64,000 nt of DNA from Candidatus Sulfotelmatobacter sp. (GCA_036500765.1 DASYBM010000004.1:1240001-1304000), one strand, 5' to 3'; counted from the stretch's first letter, positions 6,012-49,061 are shown. Program-made: numbers and translations. The notes: a model not told the origin generated them from the sequence alone.

Positions 6012-6896
6012 TTAGCGGGCGCGGGCACGCAGATTCAACCGCCAGTAGTCAAGAAAGAATGGGGGATCATCGGCCGCTGCCTGATCCGTAAGGATGGCCA
6101 TGAATTCCGCGCGAAGGTCTTCGTTGGGAAGATTTTCCAGATGGCGGCGCAGAATAATGTTGCGCACAAACTCGCGATACTGATCGGCATTATCAAGCAC
6201 GGTGGGAGCGGCTTCAGCGGAAGTCTCGATCTCAATGAATCCTGCCCGTCGCATCGCCGCCGCCGCGCCTTCCGCATGCTGAAAGAGCCAGGGCTCGCGG
6301 AAGCCGCCAAAGAACTGGGCAAATCTCTCGGCCGCCATCAGTGTGTTCGCGCGGTTACGCAGCGCCACCAGATTCGGACCGCCTCCGCATTGCGCCTCGA
6401 GCCATCCGCCGGGAGCCAGTGCCTGACGCAGATTCCGAAACAATTGATCGTGGTCGAGCACCCAATGAAATGCGGCCGTGCTGACTATCGCATCGAACGC
6501 GTGTTCGAACGGCAACTGCAAAAGATCGCAAGCTATACAGCTCACACGCGGAATGTATGAGGCAAGATGCTCTCGTGCAGAGCGCAACATATTTTGTGAA
6601 AGATCAACGGCTACAACGCGCCCGTCGGGCAGAACTTCGAGGAGATCGGCAGTCAGGCGACCGGTTCCGCATCCGGCATCGAGCACCCGCTCCCCCCCGC
6701 TGAGGCGCAAGCGCGAAAGAACTTTCTTGCCCCAGCTCACTTGCGGCGCAGAAAGCCGATGATAAACGGCAGAATTCCATTCGCGAGAACGAGATTGTGA
6801 TTGGTCAATCAAAGATTGTGCACTCACTGATTGATGAGTCAAGCTTTTGATAGGCCCCGGCGTTATCCCCGAGAATCCGTGGCGATCCGTGGCCAA
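6012..6896 (-). CDS. Class I SAM-dependent methyltransferase (trans-aconitate methyltransferase-like)
   Basis: The Rossmann methyltransferase motif I is clear (VLDAGCGTGRLT), followed by the acidic residue of motif II (VVAVDLSQNML) and FDAIVSTAAFHWVLDH (motif IV). The overall pattern resembles Tam-type small-molecule methyltransferases. The substrate is unknown. The upstream limit at 6896 is a TTG; the first 30 or so residues look non-coding, and true similarity begins near EWNSAVYHRLSAPQVSWG, so the real start is probably between 6780 and 6830. It follows the cystathionine enzyme gene closely on the same strand. Confidence 0.8.
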   Translation of the reverse strand: MATDRHGFSGITPGPIKSLTHQSVSAQSLIDQSQSRSREWNSAVYHRLSAPQVSWGKKVLSRLRLSGGERVLDAGCGTGRLTADLLEVLPDGRVVAVDLSQNMLRSAREHLASYIPRVSCIACDLLQLPFEHAFDAIVSTAAFHWVLDHDQLFRNLRQALAPGGWLEAQCGGGPNLVALRNRANTLMAAERFAQFFGGFREPWLFQHAEGAAAAMRRAGFIEIETSAEAAPTVLDNADQYREFVRNIILRRHLENLPNEDLRAEFMAILTDQAAADDPPFFLDYWRLNLRARAR

Positions 6897-6900
6897 GGTT

Positions 6901-8058
6901 TCAAATCGCGTTCAGGGCTTGATCCAGATCGTCGAGAATGTCGTCCACATCTTCAATGCCCACCGAAATTCGAACCAGCCCGTCCGTGATGCCGATGGCC
7001 TTGCGGCCTTTCACGCCCAGCGCCGCGTGCGTCATCGTCGCGGGATGAGAGATGAGTGTCTCGACGCCGCCGAGCGATTCGCCTAATGAACACACGCGCA
7101 CTTTCTTGAGCATTTTGTTGGCGTTCTTGAGCGATCCCGTTTCGAACGTAATCATCGCTCCGAAGCCGCTCATCTGGCGTCGCGCCAGCGCATGCTGCTG
7201 ATGATCGGGCAAACCAGGATAGAACACCGCCTTCACCTTCTTATGTTTAGAGAGAAAGTCGGCCACGATGCGGCCGCTGCGATCGTGTATCTCCATACGG
7301 GCAGCCAGAGTTTTTACACCGCGCAGCACCAGCCAGCATTCAAACGGAGACAGAATCGCACCCGAAGCCTTTTGCAGGAAGGCCAGTTTGTCGGCGTCCT
7401 CCTGTTTCGCGCACACGACGACTCCGCCCAGCCCGTCGCTGTGGCCGTTCAAAAACTTCGTGGTCGAGTGCACCACCATGTCGGCGCCGAGCGCAAGCGG
7501 TTGCTGCAAATACGGAGACATGAACGTGTTATCGACGACGAGGGTAACTTTCTTGCGACGGCAAATCTGGCTGATGGCGGCCAGATCGCTCAATCGCATC
7601 AGCGGATTGGTCGGGGTTTCCACGTAGACCATCCTCGTATTCTTTTGGATCGCGCTCTCGACGTTCTGCCCATCGGAGGTATCGACGTAAGAAAACTCTA
7701 GTCCGAAATTCGTCATGACCTGATTGAACAGGCGCGGCGTTCCCCCGTACAGATCGTTGCCGCACACCACATGATCCCCAGCTTTCAGCATGCTGACGAT
7801 CGCATGGATAGCTGCCATGCCGCTGCCAAACACACGGGCCGCTATCCCACCTTCGAGCGCAGCGAGATTCTGTTCCAAGCGTGCCCGCGTAGGATTGGAG
7901 ACGCGCGAGTATTCATACCCTTTATGTTCACCAATGCCTTGCTGCACATAAGTCGAGGTCGCATAGATGGGGACCGTGACGGAGCCGGTCAAAGGATCGG
8001 GCTCCTGCCCGGAATGAATGGCGCGCGTGGCAAAACCCGGTTCTTTAGTTTTCTTCAT
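6901..8058 (-). CDS. Cystathionine gamma-synthase/gamma-lyase family PLP enzyme
   Basis: This 385-residue protein belongs to the Cys/Met metabolism PLP family. SRVSNPTRARLE, GSGMAAIHA, DNTFMSPYLQQPLALGAD and the PLP lysine in HSTTKFLNGHSD (about Lys201) are all present, as is the late SLGGVETLISHPA loop. Members either make cystathionine from activated homoserine and cysteine or cleave it to cysteine. Sequence alone does not separate the two roles. A cysteine synthase/CBS-like gene lies directly upstream on the same strand (130 bp gap), which suggests sulfur transfer between Met and Cys. Confidence 0.9.
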   Translation of the reverse strand: MKKTKEPGFATRAIHSGQEPDPLTGSVTVPIYATSTYVQQGIGEHKGYEYSRVSNPTRARLEQNLAALEGGIAARVFGSGMAAIHAIVSMLKAGDHVVCGNDLYGGTPRLFNQVMTNFGLEFSYVDTSDGQNVESAIQKNTRMVYVETPTNPLMRLSDLAAISQICRRKKVTLVVDNTFMSPYLQQPLALGADMVVHSTTKFLNGHSDGLGGVVVCAKQEDADKLAFLQKASGAILSPFECWLVLRGVKTLAARMEIHDRSGRIVADFLSKHKKVKAVFYPGLPDHQQHALARRQMSGFGAMITFETGSLKNANKMLKKVRVCSLGESLGGVETLISHPATMTHAALGVKGRKAIGITDGLVRISVGIEDVDDILDDLDQALNAI

Positions 8059-39551: not shown

Positions 39552-39678
39552 TCCGCAATTCGCAAATTCCAGCCAGGCTGCAAATTCCTGCATCTTGACA
39601 CGCTCTCGCTGGAATGGGATGTTCGCTGCTTCTGTGCGGCTTGGGCCGCCAGACAAGCAATTCGGCAAGGAAACCAAT

Positions 39679-40965
39679 ATGTCACGGCACCAATTCTGCA
39701 TTGTTTGGAAAATAAGCGTCGCTCTGCTTGCGGCCCTCCTCTCAGGCGGCCCACTCGCTGTTGCGCAAACGGAAGGCACGTTGCACAACTTCGGCAGCGG
39801 CACGGATGGAAACACTCTTTACGGCGGCGTGACTTCCGACGCCTCGGGCAATCTTTACGGCACTACCTTCAACGGCGGAGCGCACGCCAACGGCGGAACT
39901 TACGGCGCGGGCACGGTGTTTGAGCTTTCGCCCCAAGCGAACGGGAGCTGGAGCGAGACCATCCTGCATAGTTTTGGCCAAACCGGAGACGGCACGGGCC
40001 CCGCCAGCGGCTTAGTGTTTGACGCCGCCGGCAATCTTTACGGCACGACCGAGTATGGCGGCGGAAGTACGGGTTGCCAGGGCGGATGCGGCATCGTCTA
40101 TCAATTGCGTCCTCCCGCGGTCAAAGGTGGCGCATGGACCGAGTCGGTGCTCTATCGCTTCGAGGAGCAATATCGCGGAGACAATCCGCTGGGCGGCGTC
40201 ATTCTCGATTCTGCCGGCAATGTCTATGGCACGACGGTTTTCGGTGGAGGCGACGACACTGGCACCGTCTTCGAACTCAGTCCGAAAAAGGGCGAGTGGA
40301 GTTTGAGGATTCTTTACAGTTTCGGTTCCGCGACCAGCGACGGGAAATATCCTTACACGTCTTTGACGATGGATTCCTCCGGCAACCTGTACAGCACGAC
40401 GTCGCAGGGCGGAGCCTATAACATGGGCACGGTGTTTGAGTTGTCGCTGCAACCCAGCGGTGCGTGGCAGGAAACGATTCTGCACAATTTCAATCCCAGC
40501 TCCGGCGACGGCTCGGATCCGATTGCGCCACTCGTCTTGGCGAATGGCAACCTGTATGGCGCGACGACTCAGGGAGGCGCGCATAATCTTGGCACCATCT
40601 TTGAGATGAAGCCCGCGCAAGCGGGAACATGGACTGAAAGTGTCCTCTATAGCTTCGGCGCGAGTAGCAGCGATGGTTCCGATCCCTGGGGTGGACTGGT
40701 CATCGATGCTGCGGGCGACATCTTCGGCCTGACGAACCTGGGTGGCGGCTACCAGGAGGGTACGGCATTTAAATTAAGCGCCAGCAACGGCGCCTGGAGC
40801 CAGCACGTGCTGCACAGCTTCGGCCACGGAACCGACGGAAAGTTTCCTGCGGGAGGATTGGTTCTGACTCCGGCGGGCAACATCTACGGCGCATGCATCC
40901 AGGGCGGCGTGTACTACACGGTCGAAGATAAGGGCGGCACGGTTTTCGAACTTCGTACGAAGTAG
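39679..40965 (+). CDS. Secreted seven-repeat GloVer-type protein 1
   Basis: AAGGA lies 8 bases before the ATG at 39679, and a signal peptide (ISVALLAALLSGGPLAVAQ) follows. The mature 400 residues contain exactly seven repeats of about 55 residues, each with a G(N/D)xYG(T/A)T...GG turn and a GTVFEL-like strand (FNGG, EYGG, VFGG, SQGG, TQGG, NLGG, IQGG). This matches the acidobacterial 'choice-of-anchor tandem repeat GloVer' type. Seven short four-strand-like repeats suggest a seven-bladed beta-propeller. No anchor or enzyme motif is seen. Its role is unknown; exported carbohydrate or surface binding is a guess. Confidence 0.85.
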   Translation: MSRHQFCIVWKISVALLAALLSGGPLAVAQTEGTLHNFGSGTDGNTLYGGVTSDASGNLYGTTFNGGAHANGGTYGAGTVFELSPQANGSWSETILHSFGQTGDGTGPASGLVFDAAGNLYGTTEYGGGSTGCQGGCGIVYQLRPPAVKGGAWTESVLYRFEEQYRGDNPLGGVILDSAGNVYGTTVFGGGDDTGTVFELSPKKGEWSLRILYSFGSATSDGKYPYTSLTMDSSGNLYSTTSQGGAYNMGTVFELSLQPSGAWQETILHNFNPSSGDGSDPIAPLVLANGNLYGATTQGGAHNLGTIFEMKPAQAGTWTESVLYSFGASSSDGSDPWGGLVIDAAGDIFGLTNLGGGYQEGTAFKLSASNGAWSQHVLHSFGHGTDGKFPAGGLVLTPAGNIYGACIQGGVYYTVEDKGGTVFELRTK

Positions 40966-41193: not shown

Positions 41194-41208
41194 TGACACG
41201 AAATGTCA
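41194..41208 (+). promoter_or_regulatory. Putative enhancer dyad upstream of pilin 1
   Basis: TGACA-N5-TGTCA forms a perfect dyad 139 bases upstream of the -24 element. Distance and sequence fit a site for a PilR/NtrC-type activator; P. aeruginosa PilR sites contain repeated (C/G)TGTC. Confidence 0.45.
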
Positions 41209-41334
41209 GCCAAATTGCCGAATTTTGCCAGCAGGCACGCAAATTGCCGAGCCTGAACTGGGCCGATAGTTACCCCTCGACTGAAACTAAAGCCCTTGTT
41301 GAAGTGGGACTTAGAACGAAGGTAACTAGCGAAT

Positions 41335-41352
41335 TTGGCGAAGCAAGTGCAA
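41335..41352 (+). promoter_or_regulatory. Sigma-54 promoter of pilin 1
   Basis: TTGGCGAAGCAAGTGCAA has GG (41337-41338), N10, GC (41349-41350), the invariant spacing of -24/-12 promoters. It lies 68 bases before the ATG. Confidence 0.6.
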
Positions 41353-41420
41353 ATATCGTAACGACTGCGTCATCCGTGACCAGCAGTTAAAAAAAGACCA
41401 ACGAGAGGAAAATAAAAGAG

Positions 41421-41942
41421 ATGCGGAAACAAAAGGGTTTCTCACTGATCGAGCTGCTGATCGTGGTGGCCATCATCCTGATCATTGCAGCTATCGCGAT
41501 TCCGAACTTACTGCGCGCCCGCATGGCGGCCAATGAGTCGTCTGCTGTCGCTTCCATTCGTACCGTCACCACCGGTGAAGTTACGTACCAGACCGCCTAT
41601 CCGACGGTCGGCTACGCTCCGGCTTTGACCAACCTGGGCGGCGCTTTGAACGCGGCTTGCACTCCGAGCTCGACCACCGCTTGCCTGATCGACTCCGTGT
41701 TGTCCAACAACGGTAACCCGGCGGCCAGCGGTAAGAGCGGATACTCGTTCACCACCGGTACGGGCACGGTTGTGGGTGGCGTCAACTCCGGTTACACCGT
41801 AGTTGCTGTGCCGCTCTCGATCAACCAGACCGGCATTCGCGCTTTCTGCGCTGAGGAAGATGCAGTGGTTCGCGTCGACCCGGCTGGCGTTTGCTCCAAC
41901 GCCGAAGCGGCCATCCTGGCCTTCAACCCCCTCAACCAGTAA
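41421..41942 (+). CDS. pilA: Type IV pilin 1 (PilA-like)
   Basis: The 173-residue prepilin has a short basic leader MRKQKG and the class III signal GFSLIELLIVVAIILIIAAIAIPNL, cleaved and N-methylated at Gly6/Phe7 with Glu at +5. The globular part has AYPTVGYAPALTNLGG, two Cys-flanked Thr/Ser loops (NAACTPSSTTACLID), a GTGTVVGGVN turn and a C-terminal Cys pair (AFCAEED ... AGVCSNAEA) that could form the D-loop disulfide. It is the first of three nearly identical copies. A UUCG hairpin terminator follows the stop. Confidence 0.93.
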   Translation: MRKQKGFSLIELLIVVAIILIIAAIAIPNLLRARMAANESSAVASIRTVTTGEVTYQTAYPTVGYAPALTNLGGALNAACTPSSTTACLIDSVLSNNGNPAASGKSGYSFTTGTGTVVGGVNSGYTVVAVPLSINQTGIRAFCAEEDAVVRVDPAGVCSNAEAAILAFNPLNQ

Positions 41943-41990
41943 TAGCGTTCGATCTGGCGAATATCCGGGGAGGGTATAAAGCCTGAGAGG

Positions 41991-42019
41991 GCAGCGAGCT
42001 TCGGCTCGCTGCCTTTTTG
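41991..42019 (+). terminator. Terminator of pilin 1
   Basis: A perfect 10-bp stem (41991-42000 with 42005-42014) has a TTCG tetraloop and is followed by five T's. Confidence 0.95.
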
Positions 42020-42076
42020 CTTTTGGGTCTGATCCGGGAGGTTCTGGCCAAGGATGAACGATCCCACGCTGCAATT

Positions 42077-42136
42077 CCAGGTTGGACAAGGCCAGGTTGA
42101 ACAAGGCCAGATTGAATGATCGGAGGTTGAACGATG
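42077..42136. repeat. Four-unit 15-bp tandem repeat between pilins 1 and 2
   Basis: The units are CCAGGTTGGACAAGG, CCAGGTTGAACAAGG, CCAGATTGAATGATC and GGAGGTTGAACGATG, decaying to the right. Confidence 0.8.
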
Positions 42137-42140
42137 AAAT

Positions 42141-42184
42141 TGTCAATATTTGTCACGCAGGCCCAATACAGCCACAAATTGACA
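42141..42184 (+). promoter_or_regulatory. Putative enhancer elements upstream of pilin 2
   Basis: TGTCA at 42141 and 42151 (N5 between) and TGACA at 42180 lie 110-150 bases upstream of the -24 element, as at pilin 1. Confidence 0.4.
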
Positions 42185-42291
42185 ACCAAGGAAGCCGGTG
42201 GCGAGGCCGCCGCCAGCCGAAATCTATCCAGTATCGCGACAAACAAAGGCTTTGGCACGCTTGGAGATGTTGATCGAGGGTAGGGTTCACT

Positions 42292-42309
42292 TTGGCATCG
42301 CGAATGCAA
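42292..42309 (+). promoter_or_regulatory. Sigma-54 promoter of pilin 2
   Basis: TTGGCATCGCGAATGCAA has GG (42294-42295), N10, GC (42306-42307). The following stretch ATCGTAACGACTG is shared with pilin 1, which suggests duplication together with the promoter. Confidence 0.6.
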
Positions 42310-42384
42310 TCATCGTAACGACTGGGTCATCCATAACCAGCAGACTTCAAAAATTAGAAAACAGAAACGAGAGGAAAATTAGAG

Positions 42385-42906
42385 ATGCGTAAACAAAAGG
42401 GTTTCTCACTGATCGAGCTGCTGATCGTGGTGGCCATCATCCTGATCATCGCTGCGATCGCGATTCCGAACTTACTGCGCGCCCGCATGGCGGCGAATGA
42501 GTCGTCTGCTGTCGCTTCGATTCGTACCGTCACCACCGGTGAAGTTACATATCAGACCGCCTATCCGACAGTTGGATATGCTCCGGCTCTGACGAACCTG
42601 GGCGGCGCTTTGAACGCGGCTTGCACTCCGAGCTCGACCACGGCTTGCCTCATTGACTCCGTGCTCTCCAACGACGGAAACCCGGCCGCCAGCGGCAAGA
42701 GCGGGTACAAGTTCACCACTGGTACGGGTACCGTTGTGGGTGGCGTAAACGTAGGCTACACCGTTGTCGCCGTGCCGCTGTCGATCAACCAGACCGGCAT
42801 TCGCGCCTTCTGCGCTGAGGAAGATGCAGTGATTCGCGTCGATCCGGCGGGCGTTTGCTCCAACACCGAAGCGGGCATCCTGCCCTTCAACCCGCTCAAC
42901 CAGTAA
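42385..42906 (+). CDS. pilA: Type IV pilin 2 (PilA-like)
   Basis: It has 173 residues and is almost identical to pilin 1. The differences I can see are few: LSNDGNP for LSNNGNP, GYKFTT for GYSFTT, VNVGYT for VNSGYT, VIRVD for VVRVD and NTEAGILPF for NAEAAILAF. The prepilin signal MRKQKG/FSLIE, the long N-terminal helix and both Cys pairs are unchanged. The substitutions fall in the globular, probably exposed part. It has its own sigma-54 site and terminator, so the two genes can be expressed independently. Confidence 0.93.
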   Translation: MRKQKGFSLIELLIVVAIILIIAAIAIPNLLRARMAANESSAVASIRTVTTGEVTYQTAYPTVGYAPALTNLGGALNAACTPSSTTACLIDSVLSNDGNPAASGKSGYKFTTGTGTVVGGVNVGYTVVAVPLSINQTGIRAFCAEEDAVIRVDPAGVCSNTEAGILPFNPLNQ

Positions 42907-42950
42907 TGCCGTTCGATCTGGCGAATGCCCGGGGAGGGTATAAGCCAAAA

Positions 42951-42988
42951 AGGGGCAGCGAGCTTGAGCTCGCTGCCCCTTTTTATTT
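42951..42988 (+). terminator. Terminator of pilin 2
   Basis: A 13-bp perfect stem (42951-42963 with 42968-42980) has a four-base loop and is followed by TTTTATTT. Confidence 0.95.
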
Positions 42989-43062
42989 GCTTGCCGCGAT
43001 CAAAAGCCAAAAACGGGACGCAAGCGGCGCGCATAGCTGCGTTCTATTACAGCGACATGAAT

Positions 43063-43088
43063 TGTCAAAGCAGTACCCTCATTTGTCA
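43063..43088 (+). promoter_or_regulatory. Putative enhancer elements upstream of pilin 3
   Basis: Two TGTCA elements, at 43063 and 43084, lie 106-131 bases before the TTTGGC box at 43191. Confidence 0.3.
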
Positions 43089-43190
43089 CCATGCCGCTTC
43101 CGAAAGGAATAGAATCGACCGAAACTTCTTGTGCCGTGGTGCAAACCAGGCCTTGCATCGAATGACCCCAACTTGGCGTCAATCGCGGCC

Positions 43191-43210
43191 TTTGGCCACA
43201 CAAGGTGTAA
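43191..43210 (+). promoter_or_regulatory. Degenerate sigma-54-like site of pilin 3
   Basis: TTTGGCCACACAAGGTGTAA aligns with the pilin 1 and 2 promoters, but the spacer is one base longer and the -12 GC is GT. It is expected to be weak. Confidence 0.3.
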
Positions 43211-43233
43211 TATCATCACGACGGGGTCATACG

Positions 43234-43263
43234 AGATCTACATAAATTAGATCTACATAAATT
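43234..43263. repeat. 15-bp tandem duplication before pilin 3
   Basis: AGATCTACATAAATT occurs twice in direct succession, just upstream of the ribosome-binding region. Confidence 0.9.
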
Positions 43264-43288
43264 GAAGAAGCGCGGGGGAACAAACGAG

Positions 43289-43810
43289 ATGCGGAAACAA
43301 GAGGGCTTTTCACTGATCGAGCTTCTGATCGTGGTGGCAATCATCCTGATCATCGCAGCGATCGCCATTCCGAACCTTCTGCGCGCGCGCATGGCGGCCA
43401 ATGAGTCCTCGGCGGTCGCGTCGATTCGCACCATCACCACGGGCGAAATCACATACCAGACGGCTTATCCGACAGTAGGCTATGCTCCGGCGCTGACCAA
43501 CCTGGGCGGCGCCCTGAATGCGGCCTGCGTACCGAGTTCGACCACGGGTTGCCTGATCGACTCGGTGCTGTCGAACGATGGAAACCCAGCCGGCAGCGGC
43601 AAGAGCGGATACAAGTTCACGACTGGAACCGGCACCGTCGTCGGAGGCGTAAACGTGGGCTATGTTGCCGTTGGCGTGCCGCTCTCGATCAATCAGACCG
43701 GCATTCGCGGCTTCTGCGCGGAGGAAGATGCGGTGATTCGCGTCGATCCGGCAGGCGTTTGTTCCAATACCGAAGCGGGTGTGCTGGCCTTCAACCCGCT
43801 GAACCAATAA
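43289..43810 (+). CDS. pilA: Type IV pilin 3 (PilA-like)
   Basis: I chose the ATG at 43289 (MRKQEGFSLIELL) because it gives the same leader as the neighbouring copies; an ATG nine codons earlier would add an unlikely leader. The 173-residue protein follows pilins 1 and 2 closely, with changes such as TITTGEITYQT, NAACVPSSTTGCLID and GYVAVGVPL. Codon usage has drifted more than between copies 1 and 2, so this copy split off earlier. Its promoter is degenerate. Confidence 0.92.
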   Translation: MRKQEGFSLIELLIVVAIILIIAAIAIPNLLRARMAANESSAVASIRTITTGEITYQTAYPTVGYAPALTNLGGALNAACVPSSTTGCLIDSVLSNDGNPAGSGKSGYKFTTGTGTVVGGVNVGYVAVGVPLSINQTGIRGFCAEEDAVIRVDPAGVCSNTEAGVLAFNPLNQ

Positions 43811-43857
43811 CGACGACCGAGGCGTTTCGTTCGCGGAAGTAAACCAGGATACAAGCC

Positions 43858-43890
43858 AGGGGCAGCGACCATTCTCTGCCCCTTTGGTTT
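43858..43890 (+). terminator. Probable terminator of pilin 3
   Basis: An 8-bp stem (43858-43865 with 43876-43883) encloses a 10-base loop, followed by TTGGTTT. The T-tract is poor. Confidence 0.55.
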
Positions 43891-43930
43891 GACGCTCCAT
43901 TTTCGGGGATCATTTTTCGGCAGGCGAGGT

Positions 43931-43945
43931 TGACACTTTCTGTTA
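43931..43945 (+). promoter_or_regulatory. Putative enhancer dyad upstream of pilin 4
   Basis: TGACA-N5-TGTTA has the same half-site spacing as the pilin 1 dyad, 127 bases upstream of the -24 GG. Confidence 0.4.
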
Positions 43946-44055
43946 CAAGCGGTCGCCATCTGCCGACCGACGATTACCGTCGAGGCATCACCCGGCTAAG
44001 CTGTTGATTTCATCGGGGCAATGAGTTTACTAAGGTTACCGAAGAACGCGCCGGA

Positions 44056-44073
44056 GTGGTAACGAGATTGCAA
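44056..44073 (+). promoter_or_regulatory. Sigma-54 promoter of pilin 4
   Basis: GTGGTAACGAGATTGCAA has GG (44058-44059), N10, GC (44070-44071) and a consensus TTGCA -12 box. Confidence 0.6.
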
Positions 44074-44130
44074 CTTACCGGATGTGGATTGCCTCCCCGC
44101 GAGGGTTGGTGACGACAAAAGGGAAACCAG

Positions 44131-44652
44131 ATGCGTTCAACCAAGGGATTTTCACTCATCGAGTTGCTGATCGTAGTGGCCATCATATTGATCATCGCCG
44201 CCATTGCGATCCCCAACCTAATGCGAGCGCGGATGGCGGCCAACGAGGCATCCGCAGTCGGTTCGCTTGCCGCCATCAAGAGCTCTGAAGTTACCTATAC
44301 GACGGCGTATCCTACGGTTGGGTTTTCACCCGACATTGCTTCCCTGGGCGGCCCGCCGCCGTGCACGCCATCGTCCACGACCGCATGCCTGCTGGACAGT
44401 ATCTTGTCTGCGGCGGTTCCCGGCAGCGCCGGCAAGAGCGGCTACGTATTCCTGGCTACCGGCCTTGTGCCGGCCGGCTCAGTCAACAATTCAGCATTTG
44501 TAGCGGGAGCGGCGCCGGTTCTGGCCCATTCCACCGGCGACCACGATTACTGCTCCACCAACGATGGCGTTCTTCGCTCCCAGCTCGCGAGCCCCGGCGA
44601 CGTTCCGGTGACTACGCAGGCAGCCTGCTATGTCTTTCCGGTAGCGCAGTAG
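44131..44652 (+). CDS. Type IV pilin-like protein 4, divergent
   Basis: The leader MRSTKG and the segment FSLIELLIVVAIILIIAAIAIPNLMRARMAANEASAV match the other pilins, but the globular part differs (VGFSPDIASLGGPPPCTPSSTTACLLDSIL, SKSGYVFLATGLVPAG-like, HDYCSTNDGVLRSQL, ACYVFPVAQ). It also has 173 residues. It keeps four cysteines, so two disulfides are possible. It may be an alternative major subunit or a minor pilin. AAAGGGAAA precedes the ATG. No clear terminator follows. Confidence 0.9.
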   Translation: MRSTKGFSLIELLIVVAIILIIAAIAIPNLMRARMAANEASAVGSLAAIKSSEVTYTTAYPTVGFSPDIASLGGPPPCTPSSTTACLLDSILSAAVPGSAGKSGYVFLATGLVPAGSVNNSAFVAGAAPVLAHSTGDHDYCSTNDGVLRSQLASPGDVPVTTQAACYVFPVAQ

Positions 44653-47574: not shown

Positions 47575-47738
47575 ACGCCGCAAGTTCTTGCATCTTGACA
47601 GCCTCGGCTCCCCAGAAGCAAAATCCAGAATCTCTCGGTCGGCTCCTGCGAATCCCCTTCGCCAGTCGTCTTTGAATGTTCGATCGTGGAATTTTCAATC
47701 GTGACCGAAAGGATATTCCCGTCAGTGGAGATTTTCGG

Positions 47739-49061
47739 ATGAAAAACGCCAGCGGTTCCTTTCAGCCAAGCCAACCTGCTATCGCCACCAGAGCCATTCC
47801 CGCCAGAATTATCCGGTATGCGCTCAGTCTGATTTTTCTTCTGGTCGGACCCGCAGCCTTTTCGCAACGTGCCTACGAAGTGGTTCACCAATTCGGGGTC
47901 GCTGATGGATCCACGCCGGTCGGCAACATGGTGATCGACTCATCAGGCAACTTGTACGGAGTAACCATGGCGGGCGGCACGAATAGTTTTTGTGATTATC
48001 GTACCGGATGCGGCACGGTGTTTAAGCTTTCTAAAACTTCGACCGGCGCCTGGCAGGAAACGGTCCTCCACCGCTTCACCGACGGAAGCGACGGCGGCCA
48101 ACCGCAAGATGGACTCGCCATTGATGGAGCTGGGAATCTTTTCGGTACCACGTCTGCTGGCGGCTCGGGTGCCGGTACCGTGTTCGAGGTGAGCCCCACG
48201 GCCACTAGTGAATGGAAAGAAACGGTGATCTATGCCTTCCAGAATCAGGCGGACGGCGGAGAACCATACGGCAAGGTGACGCTGGATGCCGCCGGAAATC
48301 TCTACGGTACAACTCCTAACTTCGGAGCGTACGGATATGGGAACGTCTTCCGGCTCTCGCCCGCCCCGGGCGGCGGTTGGACCTTCACCGTGCTATACAG
48401 CTTCACTGGCCCCAGCGACGGCGGTTCCCTCGGCGGCCTAATTCTGGATGCTGCGGGCAATTTATATGGCGCCGGGGGAAGCGCCGTGTACGAGCTCTCG
48501 CCAACCGCTTCCGGCGAATGGACGGAGATTATTCTTCACACCTTCAACCAGACAGATGGGGCCTTCCCCGTTGGCGCTCTGCTTTTTGACGCGGCGGGCA
48601 ATCTCTACGGCACGACTCAGCGCGGTGGCGACTTGACCGGCTGCGGAAGTTGGGGCTGCGGTGTGGTCTACCGGCTGTCCCCGAACTCCTCGGGCGGATG
48701 GACGGAAACTGTGCTCATCACCTTCCCGCCCGGCGCCAGCGGTAACGGCGGCGCTGCCGGAGCGAATCCCGTTGCTGGTCTTATTTTGCATGGGGCTTTG
48801 CACGGCGCTCTGCACGGCGGCGATCTTTATGGCACGACTTATGCCGGCGGGCGGTGGTCTCACGGGGTGGTGTTCAAACTCGCACCCGACTCCAGCGGCG
48901 CCTGGCACGAAACTATCGTGCATACGTTCGATGCTGATGTTGCCCATGGCCTCGGCCCCTGGGCCCCGGTGATTTTTGACGCCTCGGGCGACCTGCTCGG
49001 AACGACAGCGGGCGGCGGCAACCTGACTGGTTCCGGAGTCGTGTTTGAGTTGACTCCGTAG
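47739..49061 (+). CDS. Secreted seven-repeat GloVer-type protein 2
   Basis: GGAGA lies upstream of the ATG at 47739. A long leader with an export signal (YALSLIFLLVGPAAFSQ) precedes seven repeats, with turns MAGG, SAGG, PNFG, GAGG, QRGG, YAGG and AGGG, each followed by a GTVFKL/GVVFEL strand. It is about 440 residues long. Repeat 6 carries a 12-bp triplication (HGALHGALHGG, near 48786-48825). Repeat number equals that of proteins 1 and 3, which supports a closed propeller. A long hairpin follows. The 16 bases around TGCATCTTGACA at 47585-47600 also occur upstream of protein 1 (39585-39600). Confidence 0.85.
   Translation: MKNASGSFQPSQPAIATRAIPARIIRYALSLIFLLVGPAAFSQRAYEVVHQFGVADGSTPVGNMVIDSSGNLYGVTMAGGTNSFCDYRTGCGTVFKLSKTSTGAWQETVLHRFTDGSDGGQPQDGLAIDGAGNLFGTTSAGGSGAGTVFEVSPTATSEWKETVIYAFQNQADGGEPYGKVTLDAAGNLYGTTPNFGAYGYGNVFRLSPAPGGGWTFTVLYSFTGPSDGGSLGGLILDAAGNLYGAGGSAVYELSPTASGEWTEIILHTFNQTDGAFPVGALLFDAAGNLYGTTQRGGDLTGCGSWGCGVVYRLSPNSSGGWTETVLITFPPGASGNGGAAGANPVAGLILHGALHGALHGGDLYGTTYAGGRWSHGVVFKLAPDSSGAWHETIVHTFDADVAHGLGPWAPVIFDASGDLLGTTAGGGNLTGSGVVFELTP

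Follow-up and report, generated by a model that had tools for sequence, protein, structure and literature searches.

The stretch analysed here, referred to as the window, comprises 64,000 nt from Candidatus Sulfotelmatobacter sp., a soil acidobacterium of Terriglobales. On the strand from which the array was read, it carries four type IV pilin open reading frames (ORFs) in tandem, each of 173 amino acids (aa), and the sites upstream of these genes are the subject of this work. All four pilins score above the cut-off for PF07963 and TIGR02532, which represent the prepilin signal G/FxxxxE with the hydrophobic N-terminal helix. None of the four reaches a named major-pilin equivalog (typeIV_PilA_Myxo gives 38–40 bits against a cut-off of 400), so that they may be of either the major or the minor type. 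An earlier note on this DNA described the subunits as nearly identical, which holds for pilins 1–3 (mutual identity 90–96%), but not for pilin 4 (58% to pilin 1). Genes and terminators are as follows.

41421..41942, + strand: pilin 1, a type IV prepilin bearing the N-terminal methylation motif; PF07963 at 38.9 bits (cut-off 21.2), TIGR02532
41984..42019, + strand: intrinsic terminator 3' of pilin 1, 16-pair stem and T run
42385..42906, + strand: pilin 2, sharing 96% identity with pilin 1
42947..42984, + strand: intrinsic terminator 3' of pilin 2, 17-pair stem and T run
43289..43810, + strand: pilin 3, sharing 90% identity with pilin 1; intact, under purifying selection
43859..43882, + strand: terminator-like hairpin 3' of pilin 3, GGGGCAG ... 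CTGCCCC then TTT, read from the sequence
44131..44652, + strand: pilin 4, sharing 58% identity with pilin 1; in a separate clade of terminal-copy pilins

The hairpin after pilin 3 falls outside the terminator scan because its loop is too long for it. Together with the terminators after pilins 1 and 2, it indicates that the four genes are read as separate units.

Predicted promoter elements upstream of the four pilins

Scores of sigma-54 sites are out of 13 and refer to the general sigma-54 consensus YTGGCACG-N4-TTGCW. The candidate activator palindrome is defined as TGACA-N5-TGTCA, and near-perfect copies have at most one mismatch. The following elements were found upstream of the pilins.

41194..41208, + strand: exact palindrome TGACA-CGAAA-TGTCA of pilin 1, a candidate activator site
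41335..41351, + strand: predicted sigma-54 promoter of pilin 1, TTGGCGAAGCAAGTGCA; GG at 41337-41338, GC at 41349-41350
42141..42155, + strand: palindrome of pilin 2, TGTCA-ATATT-TGTCA, one mismatch; extra TGACA half-site at 42180
42292..42308, + strand: predicted sigma-54 promoter of pilin 2, TTGGCATCGCGAATGCA; GG at 42294
43053..43067, + strand: palindrome of pilin 3, CGACA-TGAAT-TGTCA, one mismatch; extra TGTCA half-site at 43084
43192..43209, + strand: predicted sigma-54 promoter of pilin 3, broken, TTGGCCACACAAGGTGTA; GG at 43194, GG-N11-GT
43931..43945, + strand: palindrome of pilin 4, TGACA-CTTTC-TGTTA, one mismatch
44056..44072, + strand: predicted sigma-54 promoter of pilin 4, GTGGTAACGAGATTGCA; GG at 44058

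The predicted sites at pilins 1, 2, and 4 score 9, 10, and 9, and the distance from the palindrome centre to the downstream −24 GG is 136, 146, and 120 nt, respectively. These coordinates bear out the earlier note, which had placed GG-N10-GC at 41337, 42294, and 44058, a degenerate spacing at pilin 3, and half-sites at 41194, 42141, 43063, and 43931. The N5 spacing between half-sites, which it had reserved for pilins 1 and 4, is in fact present at all four copies, exact at pilin 1 and with one mismatch at the others. As for other promoters, no sigma-70 promoter was found on the + strand of the pilin region, which is below chance expectation. A sigma-54-like match at 41232 outscores the pilin 1 site (11/13) but is unconserved in relatives and probably arose by chance, whereas the site listed above aligns with its positional counterparts.

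Whether the same motif spacing is common in random spacers depends on what is counted. For GG-N10-GC alone the answer is yes: about 45 sites on each strand of the window score at least 9/13, as would be expected if the motifs were chance matches in AT-richer spacers. Near-perfect palindromes, in contrast, number only four in the 64-kb window, one 5' of each pilin, and pairs of a palindrome with a sigma-54 site (at least 9/13) at 120–146 nt number three, at pilins 1, 2, and 4 only. It is thus the palindrome paired with a sigma-54 site at a set distance, and not GG-N10-GC alone, that takes the observation beyond chance.

The scan of other acidobacterial pilin promoters, proposed in the earlier note, covered 80 acidobacterial loci and 20 further arrays of the same genus, giving 185 distinct pilin upstream regions. 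These regions are mutually related, and the counts do not represent independent events; the boxes nevertheless appear constrained, because the sequence around them diverges. A palindrome and a sigma-54 site occur together in 93 of the 185 regions (0.04 expected from shuffles), with a preferred centre-to-GG distance of 134–138 nt, and an exact palindrome is present in 49 (0.02 in shuffles). Among the first 155 regions, the best sigma-54 match peaks 60–110 nt 5' of ATG, exceeding both shuffles and the reverse strand. De novo k-mer counting 5' of the −24 element ranks TGACA first (81 of 108 promoters, 31 expected) and recovers TGACA-N5-TGTCA as the dominant pair. Array geometry provides an internal control: an own sigma-54 site precedes 59 of 76 first copies and 40 of 50 later copies with a gap of 200–700 bp, but only 3 of 20 copies packed within less than 200 bp. 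Given the pairing, the positional peak, the de novo recovery, and the fact that all palindromes of the 64 kb lie at pilins, the chance explanation is already refuted and retains next to no probability. The tandem-pilin promoter observation is confirmed as real and far above chance, and so is the generality of the pilin control module across acidobacteria.

Regarding the spacer between palindrome and promoter, minor distance peaks near 113, 124, and 147 nt accompany the main one near 135; the series is suggestive of helical phasing, with a p-value that is not to be trusted, as the null model also blurs the main peak. Matches resembling the site of integration host factor (IHF) are weakly enriched between −60 and −40 (65 of 87 promoters, 43 expected; 19 versus 6.6 under a stricter definition), and the genome has five genes of the HU/IHF family, which is suggestive of a role for IHF at this place. 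Two further elements recur in the aligned pilin promoters. An A-rich element, TGAAAAYAAAG (41280-41297 in the window and the aligned regions), lies about 50 nt 5' of −24 in many of them and is weakly IHF-like, and GGTAACTA stands immediately 5' of −24. In another acidobacterial family, a pilin upstream region (L256:2027-2160) combines two palindromes, 24 bp apart, with a sigma-54 site of 12/13; the distance is shorter than that seen in Terriglobales.

Candidate regulator and the pilB operon

Both components looked for in the genome, rpoN and a PilS/PilR pair, are present. The single complete RpoN (619 aa) has the activator-interacting (PF00309), core-binding (PF04963), and DNA-binding (PF04552) domains. 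PilS combines the six-transmembrane-helix domain PF25323 6TM_PilS (44.1 bits, cut-off 27) with PAS, HisKA, and HATPase_c, and PilR has a receiver (PF00072), an AAA+ domain with GAFTGA (PF00158), and a Fis-type helix-turn-helix (PF02954). Their genes close an operon with pilB, pilT, and pilC on contig C16, remote from the pilin array, and the order pilB-T-C-S-R is found in each of the 14 fetched pil loci not truncated at the edge of a contig.

The palindrome, in the form TTGACA-N5-TGTCA, also precedes pilB in 31 of 31 upstream regions of the family (exact in 29, a single mismatch in the other two), and each of the 16 fetched pil loci has exactly one. In the studied genome it reads TTGACAATTTGTGTCA (L132:8006-8021, i.e., G000 C16:71005-71020); it is near-invariant in the family and overlaps a −35-like TTGACA. 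A sigma-54 site of at least 9/13 is found in none of the 31 regions 5' of pilB. Among other families of the phylum, the palindrome stands 5' of a pilB as well (L254). PilR is the likeliest binder of the palindrome, because the same palindrome precedes pilB in all these regions and PilS/PilR are encoded in the operon. Since the palindrome 5' of pilB contains TTGACA in most of the 31 regions and is accompanied by a sigma-54 site in none, it is reasonable to infer that PilR may repress or tune the pilB operon.

Counting exact palindromes genome-wide to define a regulon is uninformative, as the 5.04-Mb genome has five, pilin 1 among them, which is near chance expectation. The TTGACA-N5-TGTCA form occurs at two places only, pilin 1 and pilB; their number is within chance, their placement is not. 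At L133:6940-7202 (minus strand), an exact palindrome TGACACATTGTGTCA is followed 151 nt on by a 10/13 sigma-54 site adjoining a 97-aa ORF (6674-6967), possibly a further target and possibly chance. A 2.5-Mb genome from another family of the phylum (G210) is rich in TTGACA-N5-TGTCA. At three of these sites (L237, L238, L243) a strong sigma-54 site follows and leads into genes other than pilins, which may point to a wider palindrome regulon in that genome.

In the proposed mechanism, each pilin gene would be a transcription unit of its own, consisting of palindrome, 120–146 nt spacer, −24/−12 promoter, short leader, gene, and, at least for copies 1–3, terminator. Phosphorylated PilR would bind TGACA-N5-TGTCA, loop to RpoN-polymerase on −24/−12, and switch on copies 1, 2, and 4 jointly. 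With a weakened activator site kept and −12 lost, copy 3 would be weak or silent under this control. At pilB, where the palindrome covers TTGACA, activation by PilR would be less likely than a block on, or tuning of, the sigma-70 transcription of PilR's own operon. This scheme, with autonomous pilin units under PilR–sigma-54 control, an impaired copy 3, and an operator at pilB, is judged probable from the sequence data. Control by PilR and sigma-54 at each copy, as put forward in the earlier note, gains strong support from the comparison of sequences.

Several results weigh against this scheme. Isolated GG-N10-GC sites are not significant, the pilin sites have middling scores, and about half of the pilin upstream regions lack the full pair of palindrome and sigma-54 site. 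Exact palindromes stand at three genomic places with no known pilus gene, roughly the number given by chance. As for pilB, a −10-like hexamer follows the palindrome at 17–18 nt in only 11 of 29 cases and is weak, and in the studied genome no recognisable −10 lies 3' of it. Finally, the genome encodes about 24 sigma-54 activators, each in principle able to bind the palindrome.

This last number leaves room for a real module bound by another activator, e.g., the NtrX-like regulator near the pil operon or one of about 22 others. An NtrY/NtrX pair is indeed encoded next to pilB, in divergent orientation, both in the studied genome and in 10 of the 16 fetched relatives. However, the palindrome stays 5' of pilB in five fetched genomes with no NtrX-like match flanking the operon, while PilS/PilR remain inside the operon in every uncut locus. 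PilR is favoured, and NtrX disfavoured, because the NtrY/NtrX pair is missing beside pilB in several pil loci, and a binder other than PilR is considered rather unlikely.

Pilin 3 and the evolution of the copies

At pilin 3 the −24 element is kept and the −12 element is lost through a 1-nt insertion and a C to T change, and no sigma-54 site scoring at least 8 exists between −130 and −30. In four relatives, the copies at the same array position still have GTGC at −12 (two of them with a weakened −24), so both changes are carried by the studied genome's copy, in line with the loss of control in one copy that had been proposed earlier. Judging from the lesion, pilin 3 should be weak or silent under sigma-54 control.

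According to the coding tree, pilins 1–3 of the studied genome form one clade (support 97/99.7), and a grouping of third copies across species is rejected (approximately unbiased test, p 0.007). In the promoter tree, by contrast, third-copy promoters do group across species (79/73), and holding the three promoters of the studied genome together is rejected (p 0.018). The groups were named after inspection of the trees, which makes these p-values indicative. Most simply, gene conversion would even out the coding parts, and the promoters would stay distinct according to array position. Of the earlier suggestion that control was copied with each gene, the presence of the module at each copy stands; the promoters themselves are old and did not arise by recent copying with the genes, since they group by position and the coding parts by genome. 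The array is a clear example of concerted evolution in coding sequences whose promoters stay distinct.

The same trees are expected if the array serves as a reservoir of pilin variants, with one or two copies expressed and promoter-less copy 3 acting as a silent donor for gene conversion. Copies with no recognisable promoter also recur in other arrays (L207 copy 4, L208 copy 3, L209, L216 copy 2, and L218 copy 3). On the other hand, promoters are kept at copies 1, 2, and 4, copy 3 retains its full length together with a start and a hairpin of its own, and the ratio of nonsynonymous to synonymous substitutions among copies 1–3 (0.06–0.09) is that of a conserved protein and not of a diversified antigen. 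A variant store is accordingly viewed as quite unlikely.

Differential expression of the pilin copies is plausible from the distinct promoters. Its rival is gene dosage, in which co-regulated copies simply raise pilin output and promoter decay at copy 3 is neutral; this is compatible with the promoter scheme itself. Dosage agrees with the single control logic of all intact promoters, with the 96% identity of copies 1 and 2, and with a −12 lesion limited, among positional relatives, to the studied lineage. Promoters kept distinct by position across species and differing palindrome-promoter distances (136, 146, and 120 nt), however, fit different outputs better, and dosage is held to be a possibility of less than even weight. 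A wider proposal would have one palindrome run the whole acidobacterial pilus, as a sigma-54 enhancer at every pilin copy and a sigma-70 operator at pilB-T-C-S-R. PilR would then activate the subunits and restrain the machinery operon, and gene conversion would keep the subunits alike while position-specific promoters, maintained over speciation, give each copy a different output. This proposal is tentative and somewhat doubtful as a whole.

Relation to known systems and flanking genes

PilR–sigma-54 control of pilA, cited in the earlier note for Pseudomonas and Geobacter, is supported by the literature: the PilSR system controls pilA in P. aeruginosa (PMC6058289), and the pilA start of G. sulfurreducens was mapped to an RpoN promoter (PMC2725144). 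With these systems and that of Myxococcus xanthus the present module shares a predicted sigma-54 promoter at a pilin gene (that of the major pilin in those systems), an NtrC-type PilR, a PilS with six transmembrane helices, and, as candidates here, upstream activator sites. It differs in having an autonomous pilin array remote from pilSR and a TGACA-N5-TGTCA site that is also found 5' of pilB with no sigma-54 site. The half-site of PilR in Pseudomonas is (C/G)TGTC; a literature search for the sequence of the PilR site returned no paper confirming it.

Other NtrC-type systems show partial likeness. NtrC at enteric glnA promoters uses one class of site both as a sigma-54 enhancer and as an operator over sigma-70 promoters, which resembles a palindrome placed at sigma-54 pilins and over the −35-like pilB element, although it serves nitrogen control and the operator reading at pilB follows from site position only. 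NmpR of M. xanthus is of the same activator class and binds 5' of sigma-54 promoters at GCGCA-N5-TGCGC, also two 5-nt half-sites with N5 between them (PMC11841059); its half-site differs, and it regulates pilR and oxygen genes rather than a pilin array. DVU2114 of Desulfovibrio vulgaris, a sigma-54-dependent response regulator, has sites 5' of both Flp pilin genes and the pilus assembly operon (PMC3333781), but it is another regulator, acting on Tad/Flp pili with no tandem type IVa array.

PilR–sigma-54 pilin control is thus already known in other phyla, and what is new is the acidobacterial module and its site, its autonomous copy-by-copy use in a tandem array, and its placement at pilB. Acidobacteriota are abundant soil bacteria, mostly uncultured, and the regulation of their type IV pili appears little studied; a search for literature on PilR, pilin, and sigma-54 in Acidobacteria found nothing related. 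The module provides an operator sequence that is precise and can be tested, a candidate for its regulator, and one copy with a naturally broken promoter against which the others can be compared, and the combination of palindrome and promoter is a simple route to pilus-regulated genes in metagenome-assembled genomes.

As for the surroundings of the array, two ORFs on either side of it (39595-40965 and 47676-49061 in the window) belong to one repeat-rich, beta-propeller-like family; the former, which was the one tested, has no Pfam match, and the repeats are of the type LYSFG...GG.LYGTT.

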